Shown: positions 44,729-64,000 of the stretch, one piece after another | Layout of the letters: each line of letters opens with the position of its first letter | Position numbering within the stretch: the stretch's first letter is position 1 | The notes under the pieces: model-generated | Database searches by the model: none | What the model was told of the DNA's origin: nothing | Seen by the model: the letters and a program-made list of their open reading frames with translations, nothing else | Source of the DNA: Streptomyces sp. HUAS ZL42 | Lineage (GTDB): Bacteria > Actinomycetota > Actinomycetes > Streptomycetales > Streptomycetaceae | Length of the DNA stretch: 64,000 nucleotides | Reading direction: 5' to 3' | Assembly (NCBI RefSeq): GCF_040782645.1 | Contig: NZ_CP160403.1 | Span: forward strand, 1,860,001-1,924,000 | Position numbers and translations under genes: made by a program

Positions 44729-45661
44729 CTACACGGTCCAGGTGTCCCCGCCGGCGAGCAGGGCGGCCAGGTCGCCCTTGCCGTACAGTTCGACGGCGGT
44801 GTCGAGCTGGTCGGCCATGAGGGTGTCGTAGACCGTCCGTTCGACGTCCCGGAACACCCCGATGGGGGTCGGGTGGTGCAGACGGGAGAGAGCGAAGGCG
44901 CGGGTGGGGTCCGGGTCGTGGGCGTCGTGGACGATCTCCTCGCCGTCTGGGGCGAGCCGGTAGGGCCGGCCCTGTTCCAGACGGAGCAGGGCGCTGTCGC
45001 GGGTGGCGGGGTCCTTGAGAGAGTCGAAGGCGCCGTCGTTGAAGATGTTGCAGTTCTGGTAGATCTCGACCAGGGCGGTGCCGGGGTGGTCGGCGGCCTG
45101 CCGGAGCACCTCGGTGAGGTGTTTGCGGTCGGAGTCGATCGTGCGTGCCACGAAGGACGCTTCCGCGCCGATCGCCAGCGACACCGGGTTGAACGGTGCG
45201 TCAAGCGAGCCCATCGGCGTCGACTTGGTGATCTTGCCGACCTCGGAGGTCGGGCTGTACTGGCCCTTGGTCAGGCCGTAGATCCGGTTGTTGAACAGCA
45301 GGATCTTGACGTTGACGTTGCGGCGCAGGGCGTGGATCAGGTGGTTGCCGCCGATGGACAGGGCGTCGCCGTCGCCGGTGACCACCCATACGCCCAGGTC
45401 GCGGCGGGAGGTCGCCAGGCCGGTGGCGATCGCGGGGGCGCGGCCGTGGATGGAGTGCATCCCGTAGGTGTTCATGTAGTACGGGAAGCGGGAGGAGCAG
45501 CCGATGCCGGAGACGAAGACAATGTTCTCTCGAGCCAGGCCCAGTTCCGGCATGAACCCCTGGACGGCGGCGAGGATGGCGTAGTCACCGCAGCCCGGGC
45601 ACCAGCGCACCTCCTGGTCGGACTTGAAGTCCTTGACGGACAACGCAAGTTCAGTCTTCAT
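44729..45661 (-). CDS. korB: 2-oxoacid:ferredoxin oxidoreductase beta subunit
   Basis: A 310-residue thiamine-diphosphate subunit. WCPGCGDYAIL near residue 20 has two of the [4Fe-4S] cysteines; VVTGDGDALSIGGNHLIHAL and LLFNNRIYGLTKGQYSPTS are the ThDP/Mg site and the KorB signature. With KorA it interconverts 2-oxoglutarate (or another 2-oxoacid), CoA and the acyl-CoA plus CO2 with reduced ferredoxin. Its start lies 11 bases inside the korA 3' end. It is the last gene of the PKS operon, an unusual location. Confidence 0.93.
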   Translation of the reverse strand: MKTELALSVKDFKSDQEVRWCPGCGDYAILAAVQGFMPELGLARENIVFVSGIGCSSRFPYYMNTYGMHSIHGRAPAIATGLATSRRDLGVWVVTGDGDALSIGGNHLIHALRRNVNVKILLFNNRIYGLTKGQYSPTSEVGKITKSTPMGSLDAPFNPVSLAIGAEASFVARTIDSDRKHLTEVLRQAADHPGTALVEIYQNCNIFNDGAFDSLKDPATRDSALLRLEQGRPYRLAPDGEEIVHDAHDPDPTRAFALSRLHHPTPIGVFRDVERTVYDTLMADQLDTAVELYGKGDLAALLAGGDTWTV

Positions 45662-47516
45662 GGTGGATCTCCCGAAGTGCGTCGGCGAGATGTTCCGCCT
45701 TGAACGGCATGCCGTTGACCTGGTTGTAGGAGTGGGCGTCGACCAGGTATCTCGACCGGATCAGGGTGGCGAGCTGCCCGAGGTTCATCTCGGGGATCAC
45801 CACCTTGTCGTACGACGTGACCACCGCTCCGAGATTGCGCGGGAAGGGGTTGAGGTGGCGCAGATGGGCTTGGGCGATCGACTCGCCGGCCTTGCGCAGC
45901 CGCCGTACCGCGGCCGTGATCGGCCCGTACGTCGAGCCCCAGCCCAGCACCAGTGTCTGCGCCCCGTGCGGGTCGTCGACCTCGATGTCCGGGACCTCGA
46001 TGCCGTCGATCTTGGCCTGGCGGGTGCGGACCATGAACTCGTGGTTGGCCGGGTCGTAGGAGATGTTGCCCGTGCCGTCCTGCTTCTCGATGCCGCCGAT
46101 CCGGTGCTCCAGACCCGGCGTGCCCGGAACGGCCCACGGGCGGGCCAGCGTCTGCGGGTCCCGCTTGTACGGCCAGAAGACCTCGGTGCCGTCCTCCAGC
46201 GTGTGGTTCGGGCCCGACGCGAACTGCACGCGCAGGTCCGGCAGCTCCTCCAGGTCCGGGATCCGCCACGGCTCGGAGCCGTTGGCCAGATAGCCGTCGG
46301 AGAGCAGGAAGACCGGGGTGCGGTAGGTCAGCGCGATCCGGGCCGCCTCCAGGGCCGCGTCGAAGCAGTCGCCCGGGGTCTTCGGCGCGATGATCGGGAC
46401 CGGGGCCTCGCCGTTGCGGCCGAACATCGCCTGCAGCAGGTCCGCCTGCTCGGTCTTGGTCGGCAGACCGGTGGACGGGCCGCCGCGCTGGATGTCCACG
46501 ATCAGCAGCGGCAGCTCCAGGGAGACCGCCAGACCGATGGTCTCCGACTTCAGCGCCACACCCGGCCCCGACGTCGTCGTCACCGCCAGCGAACCACCGA
46601 ACGCCGCGCCCAGCGCCGCCCCGATCCCCGCGATCTCGTCCTCCGCCTGGAAGGTCCGCACCCCGAAGTTCTTGTGCCGGCTCAGCTCGTGCAGGATGTC
46701 CGAGGCTGGCGTGATGGGATACGAGCCCAGGAACAGCGGCAGATCCGCCTGCTTGGACGCGGTGATCAGGCTGTAGGCGAGGGCGAGGTTGCCGGTGATG
46801 TTGCGGTAGGTGCCGGCCGGGAAGGTCTCGGTCGCCGGCGCGACCTCGTAGGAGACCGCGAAGTCCTCTGTCGTCTCGCCGAAGTTCACGCCCGCCCGGA
46901 ACGCGGCGATGTTGGCGGCCGCGATCTCGGGCTTCTTCGCGAACTTGGTCCGCAGGAACTTCTCGGTGCCCTCGGTGGGCCGGTGGTACATCCAGCTCAG
47001 CAGGCCGAGGGCGAACATGTTCTTGCTGCGCTCGGCCTCCTTGCGAGAGAGGTCGAACTCCTTCAGCGCCTCGACCGTGAGCGTGGTCAGCGGCACCGGA
47101 TGGAGTTTGTAGCCGTCCAGCGAGCCGTCCTCCAGCGGCGAGCCGTCATAGCCCACCTTCTGCAGGGCACGCTTGGTGAACTCGTCCGTGTTCACGATGA
47201 TCTCGGCGCCGCGCGGCAGGTCACCGATGTTGGCCTTCAACGCGGCCGGGTTCATCGCGACCAGCACATTGGGCGCATCGCCCGGAGTCAGGATGTCGTG
47301 ATCGGCGAAATGCAACTGGAATGACGACACACCCGGCAAAGTCCCCGCAGGCGCACGGATCTCCGCGGGAAAGTTCGGCAGGGTCGAAAGGTCGTTGCCG
47401 AAAGACGCGGTCTCCGAGGTGAACCGGTCACCGGTGAGCTGCATACCGTCACCCGAGTCCCCCGCGAACCGGATGATCACCCGGTCCAGGCGCCGCACTT
47501 CCTTGCTCACTGCCAC
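45651..47516 (-). CDS. korA: 2-oxoacid:acceptor oxidoreductase alpha (fused gamma-alpha) subunit
   Basis: A 621-residue fused protein. The gamma domain (about 10-210) starts VIIRFAGDSGDGMQLTGDRF; the alpha pyrimidine-binding domain begins LFLGSYPITPASDILHELS and contains TTTSGPGVALKSETIGLA and GGPSTGLPTKTEQADL; a C-terminal domain follows (TLVLGWGSTYGPI). This is the actinobacterial KorA form. It begins 3 bases after the carboxylase alpha subunit stop. Succinyl-CoA made by KorAB could feed methylmalonyl-CoA formation for the PKS; the reverse carboxylating direction is also possible. Confidence 0.94.
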   Translation of the reverse strand: MAVSKEVRRLDRVIIRFAGDSGDGMQLTGDRFTSETASFGNDLSTLPNFPAEIRAPAGTLPGVSSFQLHFADHDILTPGDAPNVLVAMNPAALKANIGDLPRGAEIIVNTDEFTKRALQKVGYDGSPLEDGSLDGYKLHPVPLTTLTVEALKEFDLSRKEAERSKNMFALGLLSWMYHRPTEGTEKFLRTKFAKKPEIAAANIAAFRAGVNFGETTEDFAVSYEVAPATETFPAGTYRNITGNLALAYSLITASKQADLPLFLGSYPITPASDILHELSRHKNFGVRTFQAEDEIAGIGAALGAAFGGSLAVTTTSGPGVALKSETIGLAVSLELPLLIVDIQRGGPSTGLPTKTEQADLLQAMFGRNGEAPVPIIAPKTPGDCFDAALEAARIALTYRTPVFLLSDGYLANGSEPWRIPDLEELPDLRVQFASGPNHTLEDGTEVFWPYKRDPQTLARPWAVPGTPGLEHRIGGIEKQDGTGNISYDPANHEFMVRTRQAKIDGIEVPDIEVDDPHGAQTLVLGWGSTYGPITAAVRRLRKAGESIAQAHLRHLNPFPRNLGAVVTSYDKVVIPEMNLGQLATLIRSRYLVDAHSYNQVNGMPFKAEHLADALREIHHED

Positions 47517-47519
47517 AGT

Positions 47520-63242: not shown

Positions 63243-63260
63243 TTCTCCCGTTCAGCACTA

Positions 63261-64000
63261 TCAGGTCTCGGAACTGGCGCGGACCATGCGAATGAGGGCG
63301 TCGACATCCATGTCGTCGATGAGGTCGGCACCGTCCTCCGGCTCGTCGGAGCCACCGCTCCGCTCGCCGGCCGCGGCGTCGACGTCGTGTGCGAGCCGGA
63401 GCAGTCCGTCGAGCAGGCCCGCCTGCCGGAGGCTGTCCACCGGGACGGATGCGAGCACGCGGCGGATCTCGGTCTCGTCGGGTGTGCCGGCGACCGCCGA
63501 CGACGGCTCGGGGGCGAGCACCGTCAGCAGGTGTCCGGCGACGGCCTCGGGGGTCGGGTAGTCGAAGACGAGGGTCGCGGACAGCCGCAGCCCGGTCGCC
63601 TTGCCGAGTCGGTTGCGCAGTTCCACGGCGGTCAGCGAGTCCAGACCCAGTTCCTTGAATCCGCGCGTGGCATCGACCGTGTCCGATGCGCCGTAGTCCA
63701 GCGTCGCCGCGATCTCGGCGCACACGAGGTCCAGCAGGACCTGCTGCTGCTCGTCCGCCGTGAGCGCCGTCAGCCGCTCGGCGAGGGTCGGCCCGGAGGG
63801 GGCCTGCCCGGTGGCCGGGCCGGCGGACGCGGCGCGGCGGGCCGGCGCCCGGACCAGGCCGCGCAGCAGGGGCGGCGCGTCGGCGCCGAGCGCTCTGAGC
63901 GCCGTCGTGTCGAGCGGCAGCGGCACCAGCGCGGCCGCGTCCGTCCCGAGTGCGGCGTCGAACAGTTCCATGCCCTGAGCCGAGGTGATCGCGACCATGC
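63261..64000 (-). CDS. Type I PKS C-terminus (ACP and docking domain), truncated by window edge
   Basis: The open frame enters from beyond position 64000. It ends with an ACP (GLDSLTAVELRNRL, Ser in FKELGLDSLTAV), preceded by the end of a KR-type linker (AITSAQGMELFDAAL...LLRGLVRAPARRA), and then a class 1 docking domain of about 75 residues (PDETEIRRVLASVPVDSLRQ...DDMDVDALIRMVRASSET). It should hand its chain to the KS of the next PKS, whose N-terminal coiled coil starts 18 bases downstream. The apparent ATG at 63998 is internal. Confidence 0.93.
   Translation of the reverse strand, partial: MVAITSAQGMELFDAALGTDAAALVPLPLDTTALRALGADAPPLLRGLVRAPARRAASAGPATGQAPSGPTLAERLTALTADEQQQVLLDLVCAEIAATLDYGASDTVDATRGFKELGLDSLTAVELRNRLGKATGLRLSATLVFDYPTPEAVAGHLLTVLAPEPSSAVAGTPDETEIRRVLASVPVDSLRQAGLLDGLLRLAHDVDAAAGERSGGSDEPEDGADLIDDMDVDALIRMVRASSET

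Follow-up and report, generated by a model that had tools for sequence, protein, structure and literature searches.

We show that, in the 64,000-nucleotide stretch of Streptomyces sp. HUAS ZL42 analysed here (the window; positions 1860001-1924000 of a single 9.87 Mb contig), a modular polyketide synthase (PKS) operon ends in a tail of five genes, accB-accE-accA-korA-korB, coding an acyl-CoA carboxylase (AccBEA) and a 2-oxoacid:ferredoxin oxidoreductase (KorAB). With moderate confidence, we read this tail from its sequence as a precursor-and-energy booster under PKS-operon control. A preliminary description of the window had listed PKS, PKS, PKS-TE, FAD monooxygenase (FMO), accB, accE, accA, korA and korB in this order on one strand, and our gene calls, each backed by Pfam matches and all on the (-) strand, agree with it. 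Its junction range of -11 to +59 bases is exactly what we measured, both among the PKS genes (PKS1 to PKS2 +18, PKS2 to PKS3 +45, PKS3 to FMO -4) and along the tail (FMO to AccB +2, AccB to AccE +6, AccE to AccA +59, AccA to KorA +3, KorA to KorB -11). From this spacing, we infer that the run from PKS1 to korB is co-transcribed.

The beta, epsilon and alpha carboxylase subunits are all encoded in the tail. At the pocket position corresponding to PccB-422, AccB has Ile (GGAYIVM) rather than the Asp (GGAYDVM) of a PccB-like copy in the same genome (L007), as expected of an acetyl-CoA-accepting carboxylase. We take this residue to govern acyl-CoA choice, and the 1xnw chain found among the structure matches of AccB is presumably the Asp-to-Ile mutant of PccB. 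Two other AccB of this genome share 82% and 77% identity with it and two more, one of them PccB-like, share 59%; the accA product has 98% and 97% amino acid identity with two further copies. The 98% accA copy and the 82% accB lie together at 5.38 Mb (L017, 3438-13686) beside genes judged by eye to be ketosynthase- and ACP-like; with such neighbours, even this one genome shows that PKS-like genes next to a carboxylase are no rarity. In S. coelicolor, acetyl-CoA carboxylase (ACC) carboxylates acetyl-, propionyl- and butyryl-CoA, and propionyl-CoA carboxylase (PCC) mainly propionyl- and butyryl-CoA (PMC13118682).

The PKS itself points to a demand for malonyl-type extenders. PKS1 comprises about 3,600 residues arranged as KSQ-AT(HAFH)-DH-KR-ACP / KS-AT(HAFH)-DH-KR-ACP; its frame is open to 74219, outside the window, up to the 3HCDH stop codon, and its start is not settled. 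Directly upstream on the same strand, up to 77522, lie 3HCDH, KASIII and CCR-like genes, overlapping by 4 and 32 bases as called, with the KASIII start not settled. The CCR-like gene was named from ADH-type Pfam matches rather than from a CCR-specific model. The AT motif is HAFH in three of the four domains and VASH in the last, that of PKS3, and the methylmalonyl motif YASH was not seen at any of the four sites. HAFH is given as the malonyl and YASH as the methylmalonyl motif in a review that does not mention VASH (PMC6164871). The presence of CCR, KASIII and 3HCDH genes beside the PKS is what CCR-dependent ethylmalonyl-CoA supply calls for, and the VASH domain is presumed, from sequence, to be ethylmalonyl-type. 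Whether the KR domains of the last two modules are active is uncertain from sequence. Because AccB has the Ile pocket and three of the four ATs carry the malonyl motif, malonyl-CoA supply fits this operon; together with the ethylmalonyl cassette at its head, these features support the earlier proposal of a locally supplied malonyl-type extender.

KorAB has the expected domains, POR and POR_N in KorA and a TPP domain in KorB. The best PDB matches are chains of 6n2n (KorA, E = 1.2e-71; KorB, E = 1.8e-56 with 6n2n_B), with 5b46 and 5b48 ranking lower. We take 6n2n to be a 2-oxoglutarate enzyme, its PDB name being pyruvate flavodoxin/ferredoxin oxidoreductase domain protein. In the alignment with 6n2n_B, KorB retains the cysteines in CPGC, in GIGC and before the (T/I)FN(D/K) motif, which presumably bind the iron-sulfur cluster. 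KorA shares 92% amino acid identity with its own housekeeping copy and 96% with the housekeeping copy of genome G033. The own housekeeping korAB lies at 4.197 Mb beside genes that are Nuo-type by eye; this locus (L016 1-11837, 4.19 Mb) raises the side issue that electrons may pass along a single route made up of KorAB, ferredoxin and a Nuo complex. Compared with the housekeeping KorB, the N-terminal catalytic part of the window KorB is almost identical and the C-terminal part is diverged and shorter, with 29 gap positions. We rejected the notion of KorB as a much diverged protein, suggested by its 78% identity to most copies by tblastn, since the loss of identity lies in that C-terminal part.

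Characterized relatives bear on what KorAB might make. The M. tuberculosis enzyme is air-stable and active on 2-oxoglutarate and not on the other acids tried, and extracts gave a value under 0.01 with pyruvate (PMC2773412). In Streptomyces, the name putative 2-oxoglutarate ferredoxin oxidoreductase has been given to both sco4594/95 and sco6269/70 (PMC10302056). The preliminary description had proposed, as part of a local supply, that KorAB gives succinyl-CoA or another acyl-CoA. Succinyl-CoA as the product fits both the M. tuberculosis enzyme and the match to 6n2n; succinyl-CoA is not an evident extender source because no YASH motif was seen, and we rejected its conversion to a methylmalonyl extender on the same ground.

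Taken together, AccBEA would convert acetyl-CoA to malonyl-CoA, which would feed the KSQ loading module, two extension modules and KASIII. KASIII would make acetoacetyl-CoA, and the steps from there to ethylmalonyl-CoA, used by the last (VASH) module, would fall to 3HCDH, a crotonase encoded elsewhere, and CCR. KorAB would raise the dosage of the housekeeping 2-oxoglutarate:ferredoxin oxidoreductase, yielding succinyl-CoA, CO2 and reduced ferredoxin, and would sustain tricarboxylic acid (TCA) cycle flux and reductant while acetyl-CoA is drained, rather than make an extender directly. The tail copies would be duplicates of primary genes which, in many genomes, conversion (or recent duplication) holds near the housekeeping sequence. 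The supply idea is partly upheld in this form, with the role of KorAB changed.

Using FMO as a marker, we examined how the tail varies across the cluster family. A contig scan returned four clear relatives (75-94%), the remainder of the 80 loci kept reaching at most 44%; of the clusters with a named host, the nearest four all belong to Streptomyces. Among 392 scanned genomes of the genus, nine, our own included, matched at E<=1e-150. We defined the six closest clusters, the window among them, by an FMO identity of 75% or more and distant clusters by 55-67%. Where the window has accB-E-A-korA-korB, NRRL S-1022 has accB-E and the start of accA, a contig gap and the korB end; ISL-1 has accB and the accA start, a gap and the korB end; G240 has accB, a gap and 25 residues of the korB end; MUM 2J has accB and an accE-like frame only; and R302 has none of the tail genes, the carboxylase included. 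Thus korB, whole or as its end, occurs in four of the six closest clusters and is missing from MUM 2J and R302; in the three gapped clusters, korA itself was not read. A korA match was lacking in the S-1022 and ISL-1 assemblies, which had suggested that KorAB is unique to the window; the korB ends beside DUF427 in S-1022, G240 and ISL-1 led us to discard that idea. Among distant clusters, G033 and G067 have accB-E-A after FMO without kor genes, G118 has accB, and G091 and G276 have neither acc nor kor genes there, so that korAB is missing from all five readable ones (the counts exclude G188 and G257, which break off after accB). In G276, an accB-korA-korB set lies on a separate short contig (L157), and G118 has a pair of CCR-like genes and a pair of KASIII genes close together beside the related cluster (L224 10102-15766). 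On this sequence comparison, KorAB is a retained yet apparently dispensable addition of the close cluster group. In the draft assemblies G392 and G395, korA was not found though korB ends are present, and such drafts may be interrupted at near-identical copies or lose them.

Across the genus, extra korA loci recur beside acc genes. KorA was matched at E<=1e-200 in 377 of the 392 sampled genomes, the 15 without it all being in about 50 or more contigs. We picked by eye 55 genomes with at least two KorA matches, a few of these matches being pieces of one gene, and fetched 84 of the 115 matches plus four more loci (88 in all); those left out were mostly second pair members taken for housekeeping copies. 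Classing by Nuo-like neighbours gave 30 housekeeping and 58 non-housekeeping loci, some of the latter being cut by contig ends and possibly housekeeping. An accA or accB gene (70% or more) lay within 10 kb at 15/58 non-housekeeping and 0/30 housekeeping loci (Fisher P = 0.0018), and on the same strand within 500 bases at 8/58 and 0/30 (P = 0.047). KS or AT matches occurred within 10 kb of korA at 13/58 against 0/30 (P = 0.0035), and CCR, KASIII or 3HCDH genes (46% or more) near korA showed no significant enrichment (4/58 against 0/30, P = 0.29). L145, for example, is like the coelimycin (cpk) cluster, with a PKS ending in NAD_binding_4, a BBE flavoprotein and accA-korA-korB in the window's order; L146 has accB-korA-korB and a CCR-KASIII-3HCDH set 77-83% identical to that of the window; and L171 (genome G300) has accA-korA-korB and three flanking genes in common with L145 (58-71% amino acid identity). 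Beside the trio, L171 also has a gene that, judged by eye, resembles those of SARP-type regulators. In the related clusters L161 and L174, korAB lies with a one-module-like PKS, a gene adenylation-like by eye and a thioesterase-like gene.

The copies tend to resemble others of their own genome. For accA in clusters or linked to kor genes, the best partner was an own-genome accA in 6/6 genomes (89.6-99.8% DNA identity), and the 300-base flanks of seven accA pairs matched at 44-52%, which we took as the level of unrelated sequence. The window accA is 98.5% identical in DNA to its own copy, against 86.9% and 87.9% to the same-place accA of the G033 and G067 clusters. Likewise, of the 28 korA pairs with both members compared, 21 had the own housekeeping copy as the nearest sequence. 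The korA genes of L145 and L171 are 82.2% alike, against 99.0% and 93.8% to their own housekeeping copies; those of L161 and L174, which are of one cluster type with neighbours at 68-95% amino acid identity, are 87.1% alike, and L161 is 97.2% identical to its own. Because these shared-flank pairs carry own-like korA, conversion in place is favoured over separate captures, and gene conversion is the likely cause of the own-genome likeness seen in these alignments; in the other pairs, recent duplication may also explain it. This likeness of accA and korA suggests selection on dosage and timing, not on new chemistry. We give somewhat less than an even chance to the broader view that korAB with acc genes forms a recurring booster sub-cluster, recruited repeatedly, whose accA and korA are re-fitted by gene conversion to the copies of each new host, the window accA being already re-fitted and its korA still marked by another lineage. 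The KorA tree joins the window with the G033 copy (98 SH-aLRT, quick method), and G033's own cluster is without korAB; the KorB tree, whose bootstrap had not settled, places the window KorB with L112 (95/90) on a long branch. That primary metabolism expands in producers is a known idea, as are the sharing of sub-clusters and concerted evolution within PKS (PMC5801464, PMC4256081). We found no description of gene conversion between accA1 and accA2 in the accessible parts of the openly licensed literature searched, which is weak evidence of absence.

Several observations weigh against a booster role of the tail. Since two of the six closest and all five readable distant clusters lack korAB, and R302 lacks the carboxylase too, neither appears to be needed for the core pathway. 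The window korA, one of seven exceptions to own-genome likeness, is 87.1% identical in DNA to its own housekeeping copy against 94.1% to that of G033. At 35/58 non-housekeeping korA loci, no accA, accB, KS, AT or CCR lay in reach, and the 30 housekeeping loci share one genomic place and are not independent draws, the loci being hand-chosen. The preliminary description had held that identical housekeeping synteny in relatives, but with no PKS, would refute its idea. Housekeeping korAB lacks these neighbours, but the 20 kb of L171 in G300 contain no KS or AT match, and the PKS proteins upstream of L145 had zero matches in the 20 kb upstream of L171; the accA-korA-korB trio is therefore not bound to PKS genes and may serve other pathways too. 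Finally, published work presumes that CpkP alpha/beta, the korAB-type proteins of cpk, yield acetyl-CoA rather than succinyl-CoA (PMC13011467).

An alternative that we consider unlikely, yet the strongest of those weighed, is that KorAB acts on pyruvate and closes a C2 line from pyruvate through acetyl-CoA, malonyl-CoA (AccBEA), acetoacetyl-CoA (KASIII) and ethylmalonyl-CoA (CCR) to the PKS. The malonyl-type and presumed ethylmalonyl-type ATs could all be fed from acetyl-CoA, and the 15/58 extra korA loci beside acc genes would suit it, as would the presumed part of CpkP alpha/beta in acetyl-CoA production (PMC13011467). It is countered by the catalytic part of KorAB, almost identical to that of the housekeeping enzyme, whose Streptomyces substrate is itself "putative"; by the ranking of 6n2n ahead of 5b46/5b48; and by the value of under 0.01 obtained with pyruvate in M. 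tuberculosis extracts (PMC2773412). We think it improbable that KorAB is a passenger joined by accident. Its variable presence among relatives and a korA that looks imported from a G033/G388-like lineage would agree with this, but the junctions of +3 and -11 are tight, the frames are intact, korB or its end is retained in four of the six closest clusters, and korAB is paired with acc genes elsewhere.

The remaining alternatives seem less probable still. KorAB-type enzymes reduce ferredoxin, and two cytochrome P450s belong to the cluster. The preliminary description had suggested that ferredoxin reduced by KorAB could drive them; this gained no specific support, as a crude regular-expression scan of window coordinates 20001-92000 gave no convincing cluster ferredoxin (one good-looking match, at 88984, lies in other genes), and R302, MUM 2J, G033, G067 and G276 retain P450s without KorAB beside them. 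It is very improbable that AccBEA and KorAB are resistant duplicates of the product's target: extra copies of primary enzymes inside a biosynthetic cluster and the diverged KorB C-terminus would be in keeping with self-resistance, but accA stays close to other genome copies and korA to housekeeping ones, AccBEA or KorAB is absent from relatives that share the core genes, and no single target unites a biotin enzyme and a thiamine enzyme. Least probable is a supply of local CO2 by KorAB to the carboxylating AccBEA and CCR. The operon does contain two CO2/bicarbonate-fixing steps, and a korAB mutant of M. tuberculosis grows more poorly at low CO2 (PMC2773412), but many reactions yield CO2, and the G067 cluster has CCR and acc genes without korAB.

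Table 1 Features of the cluster in window coordinates.
Feature	Position	Strand	Support
korB, 2-oxoacid:ferredoxin oxidoreductase beta	44729..45661	-	TPP_enzyme_C 3.3e-30
korA, 2-oxoacid:ferredoxin oxidoreductase alpha, POR + POR_N in one chain	45651..47516	-	POR, POR_N, PFOR_II
accA, acyl-CoA carboxylase alpha (biotin carboxylase + biotin carrier)	47520..49295	-	Biotin_carb_N/CPSase_L_D2/Biotin_carb_C/Biotin_lipoyl
accE, acyl-CoA carboxylase epsilon	49355..49564	-	ACC_epsilon 2.7e-8
accB, AccB-type carboxyltransferase beta	49571..51121	-	Carboxyl_trans 8.6e-198; best PDB chain 7w5u_A
FMO, FAD-dependent monooxygenase	51124..52647	-	FAD_binding_3 1.4e-70
PKS3, KS-AT(VASH)-KR-ACP-TE	52644..58226	-	Pfam KS/AT/KR/ACP + TE
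PKS2, KS-AT(HAFH)-KR-ACP	58272..63242	-	Pfam KS/AT/KR/ACP
PKS1, C-terminal end	63261..64000	-	rest of protein outside window
DUF427 protein, convergent with korB; tail end marker in close relatives	44275..44676	+	
Aldo/keto reductase, retained in close cluster relatives	43337..44260	+	Aldo_ket_red 1.5e-68
TetR-type regulator, retained in relatives	42491..43096	-	
Acyl-CoA dehydrogenase family protein, retained in relatives	40726..42429	+	
Cytochrome P450, retained in relatives	39626..40729	+	
Cytochrome P450, retained in relatives	37961..39235	-	
MFS transporter, retained in relatives	36253..37680	-	
Type II thioesterase; some related clusters have a relative of it	30695..31369	-	Thioesterase 2.5e-52
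Large AAA/LuxR regulator, two TTA codons	27740..30586	+	AAA_16, GerE

We counted the genes beyond korB, from DUF427 to the LuxR-type regulator, as part of the cluster because most of them recur in related clusters. The large regulator is likely the cluster regulator, and a relative of it adjoins the MFS gene in L021. Its two TTA codons lie near its start, and the 20 further cluster genes that we counted have none, which hints at bldA control. ARAGORN called a tRNA-Pro at 28072-28169 inside this gene, probably falsely. Between the cluster thioesterase and the MFS gene, GCS2, FGE-sulfatase/DinB, GATase and Methyltransf_33 genes stand in a row (32195-36073). We take this row to resemble the ergothioneine set egtA-D. 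In L021, the MFS gene is directly beside the regulator relative, leaving no space for such a set.

The closest known system is the cpk cluster of S. coelicolor (SCO6265-SCO6288), in which cpkP beta, cpkP alpha and accA1 form one transcription unit and are classed, with cpkK, as precursor supply (PMC6667686). SCO6284, which is CpkK, is AccB2 and adjoins AccE2 (PMC13118682); AccA1 differs from AccA2 at four residues (PMC8062868); and a 2026 study in which accA1 and cpkK were upregulated by salt calls the function of CpkP alpha/beta unknown and presumes a part in acetyl-CoA production (PMC13011467). Like cpk, the window combines a modular PKS with accA and korAB-type genes and a cluster AccB/AccE pair, and its region 44729-49295 has the accA-korA-korB order on one strand beside the modular PKS, as does L145. 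The preliminary description had thought a carboxylase and KorAB beside PKS genes rare, which does not hold given the same enzyme set in cpk and the 15/58 extra korA loci beside acc genes. The two systems differ in that the cpk beta and epsilon genes lie outside the accA1 unit, whereas in the window the five genes follow PKS-TE and FMO on one strand; in that the last PKS of the window ends in a thioesterase and that of cpk-like L145 in a reductase domain (NAD_binding_4); and in the CCR-KASIII-3HCDH cassette that heads the window operon. This cassette, with its CCR-like, KASIII and 3HCDH genes side by side, resembles other CCR-dependent ethylmalonyl-CoA cassettes, including those of G067, G118 and G208, but shares its gene run with a complete carboxylase of acetyl-CoA type and with KorAB.

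The housekeeping KorAB and M. tuberculosis Rv2454c-Rv2455c belong to the same enzyme family as the cluster KorAB, whose catalytic part is near-identical to that of its own housekeeping copy; the latter differs by its other locus, its longer KorB C-terminus and acc genes within 10 kb at 0/30 such loci. An acyl-CoA carboxylase also serves a PKS in what we take to be the stambomycin pathway. That alkylmalonyl-CoA supply is CCR-independent (PMC5187497), whereas the operon described here has a CCR-like gene and an AccB with the acetyl-CoA-type pocket. In the accessible parts of the openly licensed literature searched, we found no description of a PKS operon in which accBEA and korAB adjoin, which is weak evidence of absence. 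Overall, the arrangement is a variation on the coelimycin-type enzyme set, not a new kind of system, and its most useful new points are 1) a tail that is optional within one cluster family, 2) the recurrent pairing of korAB with acc genes, and 3) the homogenised copies. As a second PKS family, it offers a contiguous accBEA-korAB tail together with relatives lacking parts of it, and hence a natural test of what KorAB contributes.

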